From Diphasiastrum complanatum (taxonomy: Eukaryota; Streptophyta; Lycopodiopsida; Lycopodiales; Lycopodiaceae): 64,000 bases of DNA. The position numbers were made by a program, and so were the translations under genes. The notes beneath the pieces were generated by a model, which was not told where the DNA came from, ran no database searches, and saw only the letters and a list, made by a program, of their open reading frames with translations. The stretch lies in contig CM055095.1 of assembly GCA_029204225.1 (NCBI GenBank), positions 41,820,684-41,884,683 of the forward strand, in the 5' to 3' direction. Positions 17,354 to 64,000 of the stretch are shown in pieces (position 1 is the stretch's first letter; each line of letters opens with the position of its first letter).

Positions 17354-18199
17354 TGTGCAAAAAGTACAAAAAGGCCCAAGAGTGAATCCTAATCTGATCC
17401 TCGAGAGGGATTGGTTGTCAGATTACTTGATCTATCAATCTACTTAAGATTAAGATCAATCTAGATCAATTCTAGACACAAAATTCTAACAAGAACAATC
17501 ATTAATTGAAGGTAGGTGTACTTTCTGGTTTTCCACGTGTGAAACCATGTCTGAGTACAAACTCCAACTTGAAAATCAAGTACACATTGATAGAACCTCA
17601 AAACAATCAAAACAAATGTAGACAAATGGAGAGAATCACTCAAAATTGCTTCCAAAGCCAAGATTGGTGTCTCACATTGATTATGGCCAAATGTGGCTCT
17701 ATATATACAATAAGTGGGAGCTCATGGTACTAATCATCCCTCTGATCCCACATGTGTGAAGGTGCTTTGTCATATGATAATTCATCATGCAAAACTGACA
17801 CTTGGACAAAACCTTCTATTTTGAGCACTTTTGGTCCATTTTCCTTCTATATGGAGATCTACTTGGAAATCTTCTCGAAGTCAAAATTTGCCTACTTCAG
17901 CTTATTCCACACATGTGAGTTGTCCTCTACACATGTGATATGACACCTAACCAAAGGATGTGGCTCATTCAATCAATAGATTGATGCCATGTGTCATATG
18001 TCTAGAAAACTAGTTTTTGGCCTTTTTAGCCACTAGAACTTGAATTAAATCATATGTACAACCTATATGATTATGGTACATGACAAGTACACTATTTTCA
18101 CATGTGGGAACAGGCTCCACACATGTTTGTTTATCTATATACAGGATTTTTGGCCTCTACCAAGCTTATTTTTGCATTTTTCACACTCCTCCTCAAAAA
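17354..18199 (-). mobile_element. B-family copia LTR (832 bp) with adjoining polypurine tract
   Basis: Positions 17354-18185 align along their length with the LTR at 39647-40443 and start TGTGCAAAAAG, ending TTTTTCACA. On the minus strand the tract TTTTTGAGGAGGAG (18186-18199) precedes the LTR, as a polypurine tract precedes a 3' LTR. I therefore read it as the 3' LTR of a minus-strand element whose body lay beyond 18200. The five bases on each side (TGATG, CTCCT) do not match, which fits a lost 5' half. Confidence 0.75.
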
Positions 18200-19236
18200 T
18201 CTAGCTTGGTAAATCTAGCTTGATGGAAAACATGATGATCTTGAACTTGACTCCATGGGCTGAATTGGTCTTTGCTGGTTTAAAAGGTGTGAAGATCAGC
18301 TAATGAGCTTGATGTTGATCTGAAATCACCATATCTATGATAGTGCTTCTTTGATGTTGACATCTTTGATGAGCTTGAGAGCTTTGCACCATCTTAGCAC
18401 CTCCAAAATTAATTCCTTCCAATTTTCATGTAGATGCTTGACCTTGAGGCTTGCTTCTTCTTCATGTGCATGCTCCTTCATGAGAAAATAAAGACTTCTT
18501 GATTTATTATGATCACAAAGATCTAACATCATGTTACATATCTAATAGTAAACTACAAGATGATGTATTTTCAGACTTCAGATTCATTTTCAATGGTAAA
18601 CTCGTAAGTAACTGTAAACACTCGATCTTTTATGAATAGTTTCAATCAAAACTTTCTAATACAATCTCTATACTAATTGTAACTAACTGTGTATTAGTTT
18701 TATGCAGGTACATAAATGACATGAGCCCGAGATCAAATGCAGACATTTTGGCGAAATGATCCAACTTATGGATGTTGGAGAGAGAGAGGGGAAGAATAAA
18801 TGACGAAGACGAACAAGAAACGAACTCGAACAAGAAATGAACGAGAAACGAACTCGAACAGAAAATGTTCGTGCGCAGCGGAATGAACTATACATCTCTC
18901 CGTAAGCGTGATTATGCCTATCAAAATGACAGAGCTTTAGTGATAGAAATCACGATCATTCTAGATTACATAGCCAAACATTAGTAGATGAAGCACCAGA
19001 AGAATAATTTGTTGCGAATAGCAAGACAAATTATATGTCGCAAATGATTCGCAAAGAGCTAGACTGTGCTCAACTGATAATTAGTCACGAATGATTCGCA
19101 AAAGACAAGACAAAATGTTAATCGTCTATTACCAGTAAGAACAACTAGAAAGGTCAAACAGAATGAAAGATAAGCATATCAATATTAACATGGATCTGAA
19201 TGTAGAACAATGAACTATATCAAATTAAGTATATCA
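18200..19236. other. Gap: probable decayed interior of the B-family copy
   Basis: No intact domain was recognised. A short minus-strand ORF (18335-18532) is Lys/Glu-rich. Positions 18800-18870 hold loose repeats of ACGAACTCGAACA-like units. By position it is probably internal sequence of the element whose 3' LTR is at 17354-18185; the element at 19237-24205 inserted at its right side. Confidence 0.4.
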
Positions 19237-19350
19237 TGTGAGAGATTTCTTAGTCTAGTTTAGTCATATTTTGGTAAATTGTCAATAAGAGGCCAAAACT
19301 CATTTTAGACTTAGAGATAAACTTTTTAAAGTTATATTAGTATAAAATAC

Positions 19351-20435
19351 AAGTGAAAGAATGTAAAGAACACCATCAAGTCTTGCTTTCCTATTAGTAG
19401 AGAGACAAATAGGAATTGTACCAATACCACACACTCACCACCATTGGCCATGTGAATTGCTTTCTTGGCTCCATCATAAGTGACCAAAGAAGTAAAGAAC
19501 TCCTTGTGACTAGTCATGTGTGAACTAGCTCCACTATCAATCCACCATGAATCTTTGTCACCTTCACTTGATATTAGACTTGAAGAACACATTAAAATAG
19601 AATCAACACCACCTAGATCCTCATCATTAGTAGTAAAGTTGATTTGCTTGCTACCTTCATCTCTTTGCTTCTTCAAACATTCATTTGCAAAATGCCCTTT
19701 GATTCCACAATAAAAGCATTTCAACTTAGACTTGTCTTTCTTTTTGCCAAAAGAGGAAGTCTCATCTTGATCTTGCCCTTTAGACCACTTGTGTTTGCCT
19801 TTGCCCTTGAACTTGCCTTTGATGAACATAGCCTTCTCTTCATAATGAGATGTTGATGTAGATCCACCTCCTCTTAATTGAAGCCTATACTCCTCATTCA
19901 AATCCACAATATTTGGCAAAGTCTTTTGAATAGCAAAACTTTGAACAAGATTAGCATGATCATCCAACAAGCCATTAAGTATAACTTGAACAAGTTCTAC
20001 CTCCTTAATGCTTTCATCAATACATGCTAACTCATCATTGAATGCTTTAACCCTCAAAACAAAAGCATGAGTACCCTCTTCCTTCTTTTCCAAATTTTGA
20101 AAAATTTGCCTCCTAAGAGTAAGCACTCTTGATGTAGACTTGGATTCATAATGCTTCTTCAAAGCTTTCCAAGCCTCCAAAGATGATGTGCACTTACCAA
20201 CTTCCTTAAGAAGCTCATTGGTAACATTCATCTTGATCATGTGTAGAGCTTTCTTTGCTCTCTTGTCATACCTAACTTGATCTTGAGGTGCTTGAGGTCT
20301 CTCCTCCACACCTGGAACAATCTCCATCAACTCATTCATCTCCAATGAGGACTCCATCCTCAGGTTTCAAGTAGAATAGTTGATTGAGGTAAGCCTATCA
20401 TTGCTCTCCAACATAAAGCCTCCACTTGTAGCCAT
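19351..20435 (-). pseudogene. Copia gag and start of protease, inside the inverted segment
   Basis: The likely start ATG is at 20435-20433 (MATSGGFML..., typical of copia gag). A one-base deletion near 20370 breaks the frame, which then runs open from 20357. That 341-residue reading contains a UBN2-like gag domain, a CCHC zinc knuckle CFYCGIKGHFANEC at residues 214-227, and the protease active-site motif WWIDSGASSHMT at 281-292. A second frameshift near 19420 moves the protease continuation (GIGTIPICLSTNRKARLDG) to another frame. The inversion joint then cuts it off; the last residues of the open frame are LTR sequence. Confidence 0.85.
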
Positions 20436-21024
20436 GTTGAAGTGTTCTGATCTTCTTCTTTCAACCTGATCCAATGCATGACACACTCTCTTGAATGTCA
20501 ACAAATGAACTCAAGAAGAAATTCACAAAGATATGGAACCTCTCAAATCTCTTCTAGCACTCTAACTAGAAAATCAACACATAGAATAGTGAAATCTTGA
20601 TCAACCTATGATCTATCATCAATATAATGATTCTTGCCACTTCCTAAGATTAAAATACACTCAAATGAAGTTCAGTAACCTCACAAACTAGAGAACCAAT
20701 CAAAATTAGGGTTTTGACAAAATCACAAAAAATTGAATATCTCAAATTCTACATGCAATTTCTAGAAACTTGATATATCTTCTTGTAGATTCCAATGAGC
20801 CTTCCTAATGCACCAGAAATCATCTAAATCTAGTAAGCCAAGTGTGAAATCAAAATTGATCAAGTATATAACCCTATATTGAGTTTTGACCTACAAAAGA
20901 TTAATTCTACACATGCAAAAATGCTGATTTTTGAGTAGAGATCAATCTAGCATGCTCTAGAATTGGTAACTCCTCCAAATCCTTGCTAAATATGGCTGAT
21001 ACTTTCATAACCTAAAACAAAATA

Positions 21025-21036
21025 GATCTAATACCA
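21025..21036 (-). other. Primer binding site of the copia element
   Basis: On the minus strand TGGTATTAGATC abuts the LTR end (CCTTCACA). It differs at a few positions from TGGTATCAGAGC, the initiator-methionine tRNA-type PBS of many plant copia elements. The exact abutment supports the LTR boundary at 21037. Confidence 0.8.
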
Positions 21037-21364
21037 TGTGAAGGATCTCAGATCATTCAAGATCCAATCCATGTCCCTGATCTTTGGTTACAATAAGGAA
21101 CAAACCAACAATCCTGCCAATGTAGAAAAAACAACATCTACATACAAAATGAGATGCAAACTCTAAGAGATACTGATCAAACATGAACCAAAACATAAAA
21201 TATACTTGTGTCCGTACAATTACAGTACCCTACTATATTTCACACATGTGGAACCGAAAATAGCAATAAATGATCATTCTACACATAGAATTGCAAGATA
21301 ACACCAAGATAGTGCAGCAATAAGTAGTAAAACCCAAAGAGAACCATGTATAATGATGAAATGA
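21037..21364 (-). repeat. Right part of the 5' LTR, inverted
   Basis: Its reverse complement matches the 3' LTR from about 23880 to 24205 with few differences, including GGTTCTCTTTGGGTT and the TTCACA end. It is the second half of the LTR whose first half lies at 19237-19350. Confidence 0.9.
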
Positions 21365-22294
21365 TACTAGATCTAGATCAAGATCTAATATGCTTCTTGG
21401 AGATGTTCATCTTTGTGCTAACTTGGCTAGTCTTGAGGATAATGATGGTGTTTCAATGGTTCTTCATGGCAAGTGCAAGCATGCAAAAGGTAAGGAAAGA
21501 GCTAACTTCATCAATGGAGGTGGTGAAGGTTCTTCCTTGGAAAAGATTGTTGTTAATGATTTCTTTGATCATACGAAAAAAGATGTTGTAGGTGCATTCA
21601 TGAAGGAGGTGGTTCTTCTACATTATTTTGTTATGATTCCAAGAAAGTCATTTTTGCAGCAAGTGGAGTCACATGTCTTCATAAAGAGAGTAGATCAAAT
21701 GGTTCTATCAAGAGACTTGGTGAGGGAGATAGTCACAAGTCAAGAAGAAGAGAAGTATGTGAAGAGTTCAAAGTAGGATGTACTTTGAATGATGTCATTG
21801 TGAATAATAGTGAGGAAGAATCATTATTATATGAGTCATTACCTAAAACATTGAATGGAAGTTCTTGTTTGAAAAAAGAGAGTACTTCAATCATCCTTAT
21901 GTTGAAGGTACTAATCATTTTTTTCATGGCTTCTAATGTTTTTGAGGTTTCTACTTCTTATGATGCAATCATTAAAAGGGAGTCTTATGAAGGAAAGGGC
22001 AATGGAATATTGGTTCCTGGGAAGATCCAACTAGGCATGGATCTCACATCTCTTCATCAACTCAAAGGATTCTATGATTGTGAATTGATCGCTCATTATC
22101 AAGATGGCAAAAGGTTGGCTGAAGAAGACTACATGGAGCAAATTGAAAAGCAATTTTTTCAAGGCAAGGGAGATCTCATTGGTGAGCTTATTGAGGTTTG
22201 TTATGGACTCAAAAGACTAGATTTATTAGGTTTGATACTCATCTTCACCCACTCTACTTCATGTTGGATGGAAAGTTTGGAATCTATCTTTTGA
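21365..22294 (+). pseudogene. Internal ORFs with a decayed copia RT beginning
   Basis: Two overlapping ORFs (21390-21776 and 21785-22294). The first is unrecognised. The end of the second contains EEDYMEQIEKQFFQGKGDL and CYGLKR, which correspond to the EEIYM(E/Q)QPEG...SLYGLKQ segment of copia RT. The frame then shifts, and the RT-like text continues in the next ORF as FDTHLHPLYF. The base composition matches the rest of the element. Confidence 0.6.
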
Positions 22295-23580
22295 TTTATG
22301 ATGGTGACATTGGTGACATTGTTTTCACTAGCATTTGTGGAAGATCGAGATCAAGCATTGATGAGATCTTGTTGGATCTAGATCATATGTTTGAGAGGGA
22401 GTATTTTCAGAGGTTCAGGTCTAAAGATATTCATGTCTTTGATATCTTTGATGATCAAGAGAAAGGTAAGCAAGTGGAAGCGACTCACTTTGCTTTACTC
22501 ACATGTTTTGGAGAATCTTCTTGTGTAGATGATGCTATGCAAGTGGATATTGGTTCTCATGGTTTTCATACTGGAAAAGCAAGTAATGGATCTGGAAAAA
22601 AAATTTTGTTCAATGAATTTGATGGTCAAGTTGATGATCAAGAGGTTGTTCTCAAAGGGCTTCAACAACACAAAAGGAAAGGTGGCAATTTGGAGCTAGT
22701 CAAGAGCATCAAAGGAGAGGTATTTGGCAAAGATGTTATGGATCTGTTTTTGCAGCTTATTGAAGACTCAAGTAAGGTCAAAGAAATAGCAATGAGGTGT
22801 TGTTCAAGTTTACTTTACTTGTTCTATGAGCTATTTCATGTGGATGTGTGCAAATTGTCAAGATATGGAAAAACTAGCTACATTGTCTTGCAATATCTTA
22901 TTGTTGGAGTTGTACTAACATTCTTGGCTGGTTTTGCTGATGGAAATGAAGATATTGGAGGCTCATTATATCACTCATCCATGATCAAGTTCTCAAGTTT
23001 TGAGCTACTTGATGCCAATGTTTGGATATTGTCATTTTTTGGTGAATGCATAGTCATTTTCTTGTGTCAAGTAGATCTTGAAGATGGACTATTGCAAGCT
23101 ACTTGGTTTATGGAGTTATGTGATGCTGGATTTGCATCATTAATGTACTCACCTACTCATGGATTTCCAAGGTTTGATGATATCTTGTGGCAAGATGGAG
23201 ATGGAGGCTCATTCATGGAGTTTTATGGTGGAGACATATCAAGAAAGGACAAAGTTGGAGGAGACAAGCAAGCAAATGGCCATCACTCACATTTATTGTT
23301 TGGTTGCTGTAATTTTCCTGAGATTTCAAAGTTTGAAACATGGAGGAATCATTTCATTCACATTCTATTTGTTTCTTCATGTTCTAGTTATATCTTGATG
23401 TGTAAAATTGATGTAAGAGATAGTGAAGCATCCAATTTGGACACTATTCTCTATATCAATTATGAAAGATACTTTAGAACCTTAGAAATGAGATCTACAC
23501 TTAGGATGGAGATCATTCTAAAGTTGGATCAAATTTCTATTATCAAAACTATGCCAAAACTAGTTGAAGAGGGAGTGTGA
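22198..23580 (+). CDS. 460-codon ORF of mixed retroelement origin, probably not functional
   Basis: It is open for 460 codons, ending TGA at the 3' LTR boundary. Residues 15-75 resemble copia RT (FDTHLHPLYF, then GIYLLIYDGDIGD where YVDD is expected), so the catalytic site is not preserved. Residues 85-165 (EKGKQVEATHF, SSCVDDAMQVD, GLQQHKRKGG) match the integrase-RT linker of the copia element at 63042-64000. The rest has hydrophobic segments and no recognised domain. The start is uncertain because the frame merely opens there. In a canonical copia element the linker precedes RT; here it follows. Confidence 0.5.
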   Translation: MLWTQKTRFIRFDTHLHPLYFMLDGKFGIYLLIYDGDIGDIVFTSICGRSRSSIDEILLDLDHMFEREYFQRFRSKDIHVFDIFDDQEKGKQVEATHFALLTCFGESSCVDDAMQVDIGSHGFHTGKASNGSGKKILFNEFDGQVDDQEVVLKGLQQHKRKGGNLELVKSIKGEVFGKDVMDLFLQLIEDSSKVKEIAMRCCSSLLYLFYELFHVDVCKLSRYGKTSYIVLQYLIVGVVLTFLAGFADGNEDIGGSLYHSSMIKFSSFELLDANVWILSFFGECIVIFLCQVDLEDGLLQATWFMELCDAGFASLMYSPTHGFPRFDDILWQDGDGGSFMEFYGGDISRKDKVGGDKQANGHHSHLLFGCCNFPEISKFETWRNHFIHILFVSSCSSYILMCKIDVRDSEASNLDTILYINYERYFRTLEMRSTLRMEIILKLDQISIIKTMPKLVEEGV

Positions 23581-24205
23581 GAGATTTCAACTAGTTTAGT
23601 CATATTTTGGTAAATTGTCAATAAGAGGCCAAAACTCATTTCAGACTTAGAGATAAACTTTTTAAAGTTATATTAGTTTAAAATACATTCAATAAACACT
23701 TTTTGAAAGTGTGGGAAGGTTGGAGAGATTCAAATTTGAACTTTGGGTACATTGAATCTAGACCCAAAATTAGTAGGGTTTACATTTTAGAGAGAAAGCC
23801 AAATGGCCAAATAGGGTTTGGACACTCTATAAAAGGATGTAACTCGTGGAGAGACACATCTTTTCTCTTCTATTTCTCATTTCACCATTATACATGGTTC
23901 TCTTTGGGTTCTACTACTCATTGCTGCACTATCTTGGTGTTATCTTGCAATTCTATGTGTAAAATGGTCATTTATTGCTATTTTCGGTTCCACACGTGTG
24001 AAATACAGTAGGGTACTGCAATTGTACAGACATCAAGTATATTTTATGTTTTGGTTCATGTTTGACCAGTATCTCTTAGAGTTTGCATCTCATTTTATAT
24101 GTAGATGCTGTTTTTTCTACATTGGCAGAATTGTTGGTTTGCTCCTTATTGTAACCAAAGATCAGGGACATGGATTGGATCTTGATTGATCTGAGATCCT
24201 TCACA
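23576..24205 (+). repeat. 3' LTR of the copia element (630 bp)
   Basis: It starts TGTGAGAG after the purine-rich GAAGAGGGAG and ends GATCCTTCACA; the termini TGTGA/TCACA are inverted copies of each other. It contains a TATA-like CTCTATAAAAGG at 23826-23837 and a CCACACGTGTGAAA palindrome near 23990. It is the only complete LTR of the element. Confidence 0.9.
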
Positions 24206-24403
24206 TATCATGTATACATGTCAATAATGCGGTAGAGCACAATACATCAGTGGACGAAACCGCGTGCCCTACAAAGCTTATTTCAATCTGTAAAAAAGAA
24301 TTAAACCTTTATTCTAAAAAAAATGAAAAATCAATGCTCAGGGCATCTACTTTGTTTATGTCGTCTTCTTCTTCTCTCTTCATCATCTTTTACACGAATG
24401 GTG

Positions 24404-38096: not shown

Positions 38097-38388
38097 GTTT
38101 CTGTGGAAAAAGTACAAAAAGGACCAAGAGTGGATCCTAATCTGATCCTCAAGAGGGATTGGTTGTCAGATTACTTGATCTATCAATCTACTTGAGATTA
38201 AGATCAATCTAGATCAATTCTAGACACAAAATCCTAACAAGAACAATCATTAATTGAACGTAAGTGTACTTTATGGTTTCACACGTGTGAAACACTGTCT
38301 GAGTACGGACTCCAACCTGAAAATCAAGTACACATTGATAGAACCTCAAAACAATAAAAACAAATGTAGACAAATGGAGGGAATAAAT

Positions 38389-38865
38389 CCAAGTTACTTT
38401 CATGAAAGTGACATCTATCTTTGCATCTTGAACCAAACAATGCACTTCCAAATGAAAAATTTCAAAAGATTTGACATGTGTTGTGATGGACTCTTGAAGA
38501 CAAATCTTGCAAGTCCTTGTGAGACTCCAAGCCTCATTCACCTTTCCACAAAGGAAACACCTTTCCTTGGACTTGTCCTTCTTGTATTTGCATTTTGAAC
38601 TTGAAGCTCCATCGTTCACCTCGGTCCCCTTGCTTTGGTTCTCCTTGGATGGACTAGTCTTCTTTTTGTAGCATCTTGAGAAAAAATATCCTCCCTTGCC
38701 ACAAAGGTTGCACTCAGGATCCTTTCTTTCCTTCAATAGGATGCCACCTATTGATGCCATGTGAATAAAGACCTGTGATATGATTCTACAAATGTAATTT
38801 GTGACTTTCAAGAGACTAGATTTGAACATCTTCAACAATCTAGAAGGATCTAGACAAAAGCACAC
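38389..38865 (-). pseudogene. Element B gag remnant with two zinc knuckles
   Basis: Open from ATG at 38865 into the LTR. It contains CNLCGKGGYFFSRC and, about 40 residues on, CFLCGKVNEAWSLTRTC, both like copia CCHC knuckles but the first has Tyr in place of His. A Lys/Ser-rich linker separates them. The N-terminal gag domain is missing; the leader 38866-39634 is noncoding or decayed. Residues after about 160 are LTR-derived. Confidence 0.7.
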
Positions 38866-39634
38866 AATCTTTGAATCAAATCACAAAAGAAATCAGATCC
38901 AATCTCCTATTGGACTCATCAAATACCAATGACTCTTTCTTTTGAAAGTTGAAATGGATATGAAAAAGATTTGACACCTAGATTTTCCTTTTCACTTGAC
39001 TAGTTCTCTCAACACTTGAGATTCTTGAACAAAAGATGAATTGTGTTTCAAATAGATGAAAATCAAAATTAATCACTTCTTTTGGACTCACTCTTGACCC
39101 AAATAATCTCACACTTGAGATTTAGAATGAATTTGATTTGATTTGACAACAAACCATACCACCATTTTTTCACAAAACTTAAAAATTTAGACAACTAGAG
39201 ATTCACAAAGATCTCAACCATGCATGAATACTCAAATATGGACTCCTCATCATTCTAGACATCCAATGGGATCACAAATTGACCCTCACACTCTCACAAA
39301 GAAAGTTGAATAGAACTAATTTGAGTTTCATACATACTTTGTCAATTTTTGCTCAACAAATTGAATTCGATCACTCCTATTAGATTCCCTCTCAAATTGG
39401 GTGTGTGAGTCAAATTGTACAAATTTTTTATTTTCTCTACCAAAACCGGAGCTGTATGGCCTCACAAGTGTGAAAAGGGTTCCTGCAGCCCACAACAAGT
39501 TCTGGTCCAAAAATTTTGAGAATATCTATCAAATCCAACTTGCTACCCAAAATTTGACTAGTTTCCAAAAAACTGCTAATTTTGGCTTTGATTTGGATTA
39601 ACCCTATCAATTTCAACAAAACCTCTTGTACTTG

Positions 39635-39646
39635 GCTCTGATACCA
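39635..39646 (-). other. Primer binding site of element B
   Basis: The minus strand reads TGGTATCAGAGC directly after the LTR end (TTTCCACA). This is the classical initiator-methionine tRNA PBS form of plant copia elements. Confidence 0.9.
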
Positions 39647-40443
39647 TGTGGAAAAAGTACAAAAAGGACCAAGAGTGGATCCTAACCTGATCCTCAAGAG
39701 GGATTGGTTGTCAGATTACTTGATCTATCAATCAACTTGAGATGAAGATCAATCTAGATCAATTCTAGACACAAAATCCTAACAAGAACAATCATTAATT
39801 GAAGGTAAGTGTACTTTATGGTTTCACACGTGTGAAACACTGTCTGAGTACGGACTCCAACCTGAAAATCAAGTACACATTGATAGAACCTCAAAACAAT
39901 CAAAACAAATGTAGACAAATGGAGAGAATCACTCAAACTTGCTTCCAAAACCAAGATTGGTGTCTCACATTGATTATGGCCAAATGTGGCTCTATATATA
40001 CAATAAGTGGGAGCTCGTGGTACTGATCATCCCTTTGATCCCACATGTGTGAAGGTGCTTTGTCATATGATGATTCATCATGCAAAACTGACACTTGGAC
40101 AAAACCTTCTATTTTGAGCACTTTTGGCCCATTTTCCTTCTATATGGAGATCTACTTGAAAATCTTCTAGAAGTCAAAATTCGTCTACTTCAGCTTATTC
40201 CACACATGTGAGTTGTCCTCTACACATGGGATGTGACACCTAACCAAAGGATGTGGCTCATGCAAGCAATAGATTGATGCCATGTGTCATATGTCTAGAA
40301 AACTGGTTTTTGGCCTTTTTAGCCATGATTATGGTACATGACAAGTACACTATTTTCACACGTGGGAACAGGCTCCACACGTGTGTGTTTATCTATATAC
40401 AAGATTTTTGGCCTCTACAAAGCTTATTTTTGCATTTTTCACA
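39647..40443 (-). repeat. 5' LTR of element B (797 bp)
   Basis: On the plus strand it begins TGTGGAAAAAG and ends TTTTTCACA. It aligns with 17354-18185 and, in part, with 38102-38388. It contains at least six CACRTG palindromic sites, including the 18-bp perfect palindrome GTTTCACACGTGTGAAAC at 39821-39838. A TATA-like CTATATATAC lies at 39992-40001. Confidence 0.9.
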
Positions 40444-61025: not shown

Positions 61026-63041
61026 TTGTTAGCCGATATTTCCGCACAAAAAATCGGGCTAATATTGAAGTTTAAGTTTGCAATAATTGAAAAAACCGGC
61101 ATGTAAAACCCGATTATTAGAGAAAATTGGCACAAATTTGTCGTAGAATGGGTCCCAACCTGCCCCTAAAGTGGCTAGACACAGTTTAAAGAAAGAAACT
61201 GACTTTCGAAAAAAAATCGTAAAAAAATATATTTTGTGGTCAAGTTTTGTAAGACCGGGCCAAAAATGTTGGTCCACCTAGAAATGGGTCCTAGCCCGTC
61301 CTAAATGAGGCTAGAGCAAAGTTTGTGGCCTTAGAAATGGCCTGCGATAAAGTTTTACGGCTTTTTGGCTAGTTGTAAAAATAGCCGACATAGCCGTGCT
61401 AAAATCCTACCATGTACAGAGTTGGTTTTACTAATATATGGTTGTCTAGTGCATATTTCAGGGAAACCGTGTTGTCGTGGGAGCCCTAGTCATGAATGCC
61501 AGAAAAGTCAACCCCAGTCAAAGAGCCATCAAAGAAAAATATTTATCGGGCAAAACTTAAGCTATGAATTATGGGCAATACTGAAAACTTGCAGAAACCC
61601 TAACTAGTAAAATTGGGCAAATTACGGGAAATGGACAAAGTACGCAAGTCAGTCGGTAATCTCGAGAAACCAAAAGCCAAAAGCCGGGCTATGCATACTA
61701 CAAGGAAAAATCAAATGAAAAGCCAAGGAAAATGGAGGATCGAGGGAAATAGAGGACACCTAACAAGAGAGAGAGAGGTTGGCAAGAGTCTTCAACCACC
61801 TTTTGGATCATAAATGCAAGAAGGCCTTAGAGGCTAGCAAAGTTTAGTATATACCTCCTCTAGCTATTGACAAAAGAAGCATATTGGCTAGTTTTGGAAA
61901 GGGGCCTTAAATGGCACCGACCCCTACACCCTCAAGGAGGCCACTTGATGTACTTGCCAATGGGGATTGGACAGATGTAAAGAAGGTTGAAAGGGCATGA
62001 AAATTGGCAAAGCGTCATTTTGAAGGGGGACACTTGGGATTTACTATAAAAGGAGGCCACTCTTTGTGTTAAGATATAGTTGGATGATAGTTGGCTAATA
62101 ATGTGATAGTGAGGTGATGGTAATAGTTGGAGTTGATGAGTGTGATGTGATAGTGGAATGCCATGTGCATTGAGAGTGTCATGTTGATTGAGAGTTAGTT
62201 AGAAGTCATTTGAGTTGGAAGTCATGTTGGTTGAGAGTCTTTTGGAGTGTGAGTTTGTTTGTTTGTTTGAGGGAGCTTGTGGTTTAGTTCCATTTTGTGT
62301 CTAATGTTACTCAAAGTTAGTATTACTTTGATGTTAGTTGCTTTGTGTAGTGCTTGAAGTTGGATGTTTGCAATGTGCATTAGTGATATTGGAAGTGATA
62401 CTAATTTTGAGAGGGATGGTGTAGTTGGAGGAGTGCATTGTTGAGTTCCATTGGTGGTGGGTAGGGTGTTTCTTACCATGCTTGTGTAGGGATTGTGGTG
62501 GATTGAAAGGATTTTGTTAGTAATGTTGCCTTGGAGGTATTGTTTGAAGTTGGAGTGATTGGTTGTATGATTTGTTTGTGCAATGGTAAGGAGGAAGTCC
62601 CTTGATTAGTGGTTTGATCAAGGTATTCTAGGGTTTTTGAGTAAGACCAATGTTTGTATTTAAGAGTGGGTTGAATGCTTGATTATGAGTAGTTGGTTGA
62701 GTTACGAGTTGATGTATGGAAGAGGTATGGTCGCATTTATGATTCAATGATTTGGTGAGGAAAGAATGTGGGCTAGTGTTTTGGAGTTATTTGCTATTTA
62801 CTTGCATGTTGATGGAGGTTGTGCCAATATTTGTGAAGTAGGGGGTTGAGAGTGGAATCCTCGCTTGAATGTCTTGTTGGGGAGTGATCTTAACCATGTT
62901 GGAAGGAGTGAAGGATGTTTTCAAATACCATTTGTGCAAGTAAAAGAAATCAGAGATGGAACAACATTGGCGGTTTCCCAACGACCTGCAGCACACTCAG
63001 ATGTCGCAAGCATTTATGCCACGCCCTACCTGCTACATGGT
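61026..63041. other. Gap with a possible LTR-like promoter
   Basis: 61026-61840 is unrecognised. 61990-62870 is GT-rich, with ACTATAAAAGGAGG at 62041-62054, a good TATA box of the kind found in LTRs (compare CTATAAAAGG at 23828). It may be the LTR or leader of an element, but no boundaries were found and gag is absent before the integrase at 63042. Confidence 0.35.
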
Positions 63042-64000
63042 GGTGAGTATATCTCAACCAAGTTCAAGGCCTTTTGTGATGAGCATGGGATCAAGAGGGA
63101 GTACACAACTCCAAGGACACCACAACAAGATGGAGTGGCTGAGAGGAAGAATAGGACTTTATGTGAAAGTGCCAAAGAAATGAGGTTAAGTGCTAACCTT
63201 GATAAACCATTTTGGGATCAAGCTTTTTTGTGTGCTAATTTTCTATGCAATAGTGGCCGAGTGCTATATTGGATGGAAGAACACCTTTTGAGATGCTATT
63301 CAGGAGGAGGCCGAGTGTCAACTTTTTAAAAACTTTTGGATGTTCTTGCTATGTCAATATAACTCTTGATGATAGGACAAAGGAAGATCCATCTTCAAGG
63401 AAAGGTATATTTGTTGGATATAATGAGGTGAGTAAAGCCTACAAGGTTTACATTTCTACTACTAATAGGGTGATTATTGGGAGAGATGTCATCATTTATG
63501 AGGGGAATATTCCAAAGGTGTCTTCAAGTGATGATGTTGTGGATGGATCTAACATTCTTGATGTTGATGTAAAGGATTCTACTTTAGATGGTGATGATGA
63601 TGGACCTTCATCAAGTCAAAATCCAAGGAGAACATCAAGGGAAAGACAAATGCCTTCAAGGCTCACATATGATGAGAAAGGTAAGCAAGTTGTTGGAGAT
63701 ACACACTTTTCTTTTCTAACCTCTTTTGATGAATCTTCTTGTGTAGATGATTCTATGCAAGTGGATGGATATTTTCATGATTTTTTAGAAACTAATGGAA
63801 AAGATATCTTAGTCAATGACTTTGATGGTCAAGTTGAAGATCAAGAGGTTGATCTCAAAGGCCTTCAACAACATGAAAGGAGAGATGGGTTTGGAGCTAG
63901 TCAAGAGCATGAGAGTCAATTGGCAAAGATGTTATAGATCTATTTTTGTAGATTATTGAAGACTCAAATAAGTTCAAAGGAGCAGCAAGGAAATGTTGTT
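63042..64000 (+). pseudogene. Ty1/copia integrase and linker, runs off the window
   Basis: Similarity starts abruptly at GGEYISTKFKAF, within the integrase core, followed by TPQQDGVAERKNR (catalytic Glu in the VAERKNR motif), FWDQAFLCANFLCN and, after a frameshift near 63265, GRTPFEMLFRRRPSVNFLK, FGCSCYV and KGIFVGYNEVSKAY. The acidic integrase-RT linker then runs to a stop at 63935-63937 (EKGKQVVGDTHF, SSCVDDSMQVD, GLQQHERRDG). The linker matches part of the 22198-23580 ORF. The 5' part of the element is missing; RT would lie beyond 64000. Confidence 0.85.

Follow-up and report, generated by a model that had tools for sequence, protein, structure and literature searches.

An internally inverted LTR element with intact target-site duplications in Diphasiastrum complanatum

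Elements of the Ty1-copia group (Pseudoviridae) share a copia-type gag with a CCHC knuckle, a Pol_BBD domain, TG...CA long terminal repeats (LTRs), target-site duplications (TSDs) of 5 bp, an initiator-methionine (iMet)-like primer binding site (PBS) and a polypurine tract. The same features occur in the LTR element at positions 19237-24205 (4969 bp) of the stretch of Diphasiastrum complanatum DNA analysed here, a 64-kb window (C4:41820684-41884683) whose own numbering we use for coordinates throughout. It differs from Ty1-copia in that integrase, reverse transcriptase and RNase H were not detected, a long frame without a Pfam match standing in their place, and in that the window copy is inverted internally, even though its outer ends (TGTGA and TCACA) are intact and flanked on both sides by TATCA. 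The rearrangement is real and, among the genomic places that we scored, was found only at this locus and its duplicate. It probably arose after insertion, by two breaks and an end joining that flipped the fragment, followed by duplication.

Several described rearrangements resemble this one in part. Autointegration in human immunodeficiency virus type 1 (HIV-1) proceeds by attack of the LTR CA ends on inner sites and gives circles, as PMC2644782 describes. Autointegration inversion products of retroviruses and Ty1 also have an inverted segment inside one element, whereas the joints here lack LTR ends and the element is linear and integrated. The complex insertions of Triticeae (PMC1950507) likewise combine one insertion and a 5-bp TSD with an abnormal internal order, but they hold three LTRs and two complete cores, in contrast to the inverted block, two losses and absence of a third LTR in the window element. 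Gamma-ray inversions made by end joining in plant chromosomes equally involve two breaks and rejoining in reversed order, yet those given in PMC8775353 span 15 kb to 14.9 Mb, compared with ~2 kb here. Among the listed titles and abstract openings of open-access papers, none described an internally inverted LTR element with intact TSDs, and passages of PMC9258317 had nothing to add.

Structure of the element and its single insertion

Alignment to the 630-bp 3' LTR (23576-24205) showed two pieces of the 5' LTR: a plus-strand piece at 19237-19351 that corresponds to LTR positions 1-112 (4 substitutions and one 3-bp gap), and a minus-strand piece at 21037-21364 that corresponds to positions 302-630 (15 substitutions and one 1-bp gap). 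The 189 bp of positions 113-301 are missing from the 5' LTR. The PBS TGGTATTAGATC, which we take to be tRNA-iMet-like, stands directly after the inverted LTR end. Minus-strand Pfam matches in the reversed block comprise gag (PF14223, 1.6e-19), a zinc knuckle (PF00098, 6.2e-05) and Pol_BBD (6.4e-09), and pol homology runs on in a shifted frame up to joint 1, as shown by the frame of the family copy L013. The original prediction, made from the letters alone, had the 5' LTR split between the strands with PBS and gag reversed between its parts, and the alignment, the domains and the PBS bear this out. The guanine-cytosine (GC) skew changes sign between 19351-21364 (-0.24) and 21365-23575 (+0.27), which is expected if the sense strand of the element is G-rich throughout and one block has been flipped.

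The host flank of the element is a many-copy repeat, of which we scored the best 40 places among 3913 first-look candidates. When joined with one TATCA, the two flanks align straight through to uninserted copies on contigs C3 and C6, the latter with one 26-base gap elsewhere in the left flank. These two empty sites with a single TATCA show that all 4969 bp of the element entered the repeat cleanly in one insertion, as had been predicted from its duplications and ends.

Table 1. Features of the inverted element (window positions)
Position	Strand	Feature	Basis
19232..19236		left TSD TATCA	sequence; empty site in two paralogous host repeats
19237..19350	+	5' LTR first part, LTR positions 1 to ~111/112, uninverted	alignment to 23576-24205
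19350..19352		joint 1, joining LTR position 112 to the reversed pol start	1-bp overlap (A); LTR loss of ~189 bp
19332..20366	-	inverted gag and pol-start frame (Retrotran_gag_2, zf-CCHC, Pol_BBD)	profile matches; last codons cross joint 1
21025..21036	-	inverted PBS TGGTATTAGATC	sequence
21037..21364	-	5' LTR second part, LTR positions 302-630, inverted	95.1% to 3' LTR
21364..21365		joint 2, joining LTR position 302 to the interior start	1-bp overlap (A); ~260 bp pol-interior spacer lost
21364..21391		imperfect palindrome, top-scoring of the element, starting at joint 2	palindrome scoring
21365..23575	+	interior, original orientation	460-codon stop-free stretch, frame 22195-23580
23564..23575	+	polypurine-rich tract adjoining 3' LTR	sequence
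23576..24205	+	3' LTR, 630 bp, TGTGA...TCACA	alignment
24206..24210		right TSD TATCA	sequence; empty site

The joints and the normal order across the genome

Each joint was searched in the genome (1.745 Gb in 5176 contigs), and the best 40 places were scored out of 480 first-look candidates for joint 1 and 407 for joint 2. Joint 1 was fully spanned in two of these 40, both at 100%, and the other 38 match one half, ending at most 2 bases from the joint; joint 2 was likewise spanned in two (100% and 99%), the remaining 38 matching the interior side only. For both joints, the two places are the window element itself and C4:41745432-41756295 to its left, which shares the flanks, the TATCA TSD and the joint letters. 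Window positions 9800-32977 match C4:41736000-41765000 in pieces at 96.8-99.2%, so the duplicated stretch is at least 23 kb long, at a distance of ~94.5 kb and with ~1% substitutions. The second inverted place arose by segmental duplication, or represents another haplotype retained in the assembly, and is no transposed relative. Since the joints were met only in the window element and this duplicate among the places scored, the inversion appears to have happened once and to have been duplicated afterwards. We rejected an inherited inverted subfamily, for the same joints were not found at independent insertions, the two places of 40 scored per joint lying in one segmental duplication; the search of other copies suggested along with the original prediction hence pointed to a one-off and to no family structure. 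A third copy of the LTR above 93% was also absent among the best 40 scored of 3677 first-look candidates.

Between the duplicates, the Kimura (K80) distance was 0.0116 and 0.0093 for the 2-kb flanks and, for parts of the element, 0.004-0.013, compared with 0.045 between the element's own LTRs. As the LTR-LTR distance exceeds that of the flanks and the joints are present in both duplicates, the insertion is the oldest event and the inversion came before the duplication. The duplicate alone carries a nested element (L010:4537-10000 plus L001:1-3402; C4:41748536-41754401), inserted at window positions 22321-22325, with a 1330-codon stop-free minus-strand frame in which gag, Pol_BBD, integrase and RVT_2 follow in copia order; in gag DNA it is ~77% alike to the inverted element.

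What the inverted copy lost can be read from its relatives. We read the first 20, in list order, of the 38 places that match only the interior side of joint 2, counting matches of at least 50 bp and at least 80% identity. The gag-pol piece adjoins the interior in normal order in 13 of them, across a gap of 239-266 bp (mostly 262), and is missing beside the interior in the other 7; none of the 20 had the inverted gag-interior arrangement. Dropping the filter yielded few opposite-strand matches of gag or interior; at 31-380 bp, and with 66-77% identity for those of gag, they were short or diverged, and they lay far from the interior start. L006, a copy found through its LTR, has the canonical order too, with deletions of its own. 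From the gap in the canonical copies it follows that the inverted copy lost ~260 bp between pol and interior in addition to the 189 bp of LTR. The predicted restoration of the order by flipping, at a cost of about 190 bp of LTR, therefore stands for the order and the LTR loss, and missed the pol-interior loss, which is visible only against other copies. Against the canonical letters, where we placed the overlaps by eye, each joint has 1 bp common to both sides, an A.

Origin of the inversion

Probably, two double-strand breaks hit the copy after its integration, cutting the 5' LTR and the stretch that separates pol from the interior, which would have freed a fragment of ~2.0 kb. Trimming of the broken ends would have removed the 189 and ~260 bp that are gone, and the fragment would then have been rejoined backwards by end joining, with the observed single common base per joint. 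Duplication of the surrounding region, or its presence as two haplotypes, may finally have placed the same joints twice, 94.5 kb apart. Two breaks, trimming and end joining account for both losses, for the 1-bp overlaps and for the lack of other copies with these joints; little shared sequence, combined with losses, is indeed a feature of an end-joining inversion after integration. Lacking an intact 5' LTR and a forward PBS, the inverted copy was presumably unable to amplify, which agrees with the finding that none of the scored places was a transposed descendant.

Palindromes at the breaks, noticed after the fact, hint at fragile sites. Besides the palindrome that starts at joint 2, a weaker one, tied third in the element, spans 23660-23683 (LTR positions 85-108), 4 bases from the other LTR break. 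Of the four break ends, two thus have a palindrome at, or at most 4 bases from, them, the weaker palindrome being located through its 3' LTR equivalent, and ~0.7% of window positions lie 4 bases or fewer from the edge of a palindrome as strong as 21364-21391. A check for templated filler gave nothing unusual: the longest repeats found elsewhere in the element were 11 bp (28 bases after joint 2) and 10 bp (after joint 1), against a background in which 147 of 1279 other stretches of the element have a repeat of at least 11 bp.

Substitutions offer a weak hint about timing. Ancestral states for the U5 (unique 5') part were taken from 24 family LTRs, with one site (A>G) tied and some others variable in the family. 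At the 15 sites that differ between the inverted LTR part and the 3' LTR, the 5' piece had 6 C>T in element sense, and the 3' LTR had G>A 4 times, T>C 3 times, and A>G and A>T once each. In the present orientation of the block, the deamination-type changes, 10 in number, without exception read G>A along the plus strand of the genome, where the normal order would give 6 versus 4, a pattern that would fit mutations under a strand bias that came after the inversion. The uninverted first LTR piece bears neither way, its single C/T difference being a T>C in the 3' LTR, and five control LTR pairs (two of them near-duplicates) gave mixed patterns.

Several points weigh against an inversion by end joining after insertion, or against the evidence for it. 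Only two copies of the locus were found in the assembly, both inverted, so that the order of insertion and inversion is not directly seen. The losses exceed the indels of 0-5 bp that accompany most structural variants in one Arabidopsis study, PMC8775353. The 13 canonical copies are partly non-independent, L012/L013, L015/L016 and L018/L030 being 98.6-99.6% alike and L026/L027 96.7% in the interior piece compared. The strand-bias hint, finally, is post hoc and concerns few sites, where 10 versus 0 would arise by chance about once in 500.

Template switches in reverse transcription usually use homology, and at each joint here only 1 bp is common and sequence was lost. We hence regard it as unlikely that the inversion preceded integration, whether through a switch of strand or template in reverse transcription or through end joining of complementary DNA (cDNA) pieces in the particle, with the linear cDNA integrated thereafter, although a rearranged linear cDNA would also give intact outer LTR ends and a TSD. 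PMC1950507 ascribes the Triticeae complexes, which have TSDs, to template switching; in contrast to the window element, these contain a third LTR as well as two complete cores. Slightly less likely is the specific course in which reverse-transcription products were joined in the particle and an internally inverted linear cDNA with both ends integrated normally, a process distinct from autointegration. Autointegration, in which the element's own LTR end would have attacked its interior, is known to yield inversions (PMC2644782), but no LTR terminus is found at either joint, the joints being at LTR positions 112 and 302, and in place of the circular products described there we see a linear element that has its two outer ends and a TSD. 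We reject it for the lack of an LTR end at any joint and consider it very improbable, since both joints would have to have been eroded later. Of the routes named in the original prediction, later recombination, in the form of end joining, consequently fits best, autointegration falls away, and an error of reverse transcription is unlikely.

A block that was copied and not flipped, by replication-based template switching of the kind of microhomology-mediated break-induced replication (MMBIR), within the integrated element or from another copy, would leave an identical product. A tree of 28 LTR pieces of the U5 part (omitting pieces below 290 bp or below 84% identity and the double of the duplicate's LTR) joined the inverted LTR to its own 3' LTR as sister with a support of 0.278, which is not firm, and the inverted LTR is 4.3% from the LTR of L008 versus 4.6% from its own 3' LTR. 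Undisturbed copies do not always have sister LTRs either: those of L006 and L022 are sisters, and those of L024, L012 and L013 are not. The two 5' LTR pieces are, moreover, equally diverged from the 3' LTR (4/112 versus 15/328 sites, Fisher p 0.79), and no forward copy of the block is left in the element, so that copying would have required a precise replacement; we find this course doubtful, somewhat more so than an inversion before integration. An assembly error is scarcely credible. The inverted LTR piece and the 3' LTR do form mutual inverted repeats, a setting in which assemblers can err, yet a second assembled place, ~1% different from the window and with a nested insertion of its own, shows both joints letter for letter, and joint 1 lies outside any inverted repeat of the element.

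Family identity, neighbouring elements and meaning

The family is large (3677 first-look LTR candidates, unverified), and its members have gag and the start of pol followed by a long open frame where integrase and reverse transcriptase would be. The Pfam scan of the inverted element's frames gave no match to integrase or reverse transcriptase, with Pol_BBD as the sole pol domain found, and none for the two longest interior frames. A PDB sequence search with the 461-aa interior frame gave no match, nor did a search for this frame in bacterial/archaeal and viral contigs or for gag in viral contigs, and an Rfam search and a tRNA search of the window found nothing. None of 1000 dinucleotide shuffles attained a stop-free stretch as long as the 460-codon one. 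The predicted fold of the interior frame was uninformative (mean predicted local distance difference test score, pLDDT, 31.8), and a comparison of the interior with 63669-63888 over 217 bases showed no clear coding bias, with 9, 14 and 16 differences by codon position. The family is best called non-autonomous and copia-derived, and no full member of Ty1-copia.

At 62850-64000, pieces of a copia integrase and an SH3-like domain continue into DNA that is 77.6% identical to 22459-22804 and is truncated where the window ends; it may be related to the source from which part of the family's interior came. A different LTR element lies on the minus strand at 38102-40443, with GTTTC on both sides, the PBS TGGTATCAGAGCCAA and a 3' LTR that keeps only 301 bp, as would result from a deletion inside the element that extended into the LTR. 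At a distance of ~1 kb from the inverted element, an LTR at 17354-18185 (91% to 39647-40443) has a purine-rich tract on its right side and no matching TSD, and its element seems truncated. The motif CACACGTGTGAAA is common to LTRs of two otherwise different families (23988-24003, 38276-38293 and 39821-39838).

The rearrangement is well explained by known processes and does not change views of how retrotransposons work. The locus offers a well-resolved case of LTR-element decay by breakage and rejoining, in which insertion, inversion and duplication can be ordered and the family copies reveal what was lost. It further demonstrates that matching TSDs and LTR ends are no guarantee of a normal internal order, which matters for the annotation of such elements.

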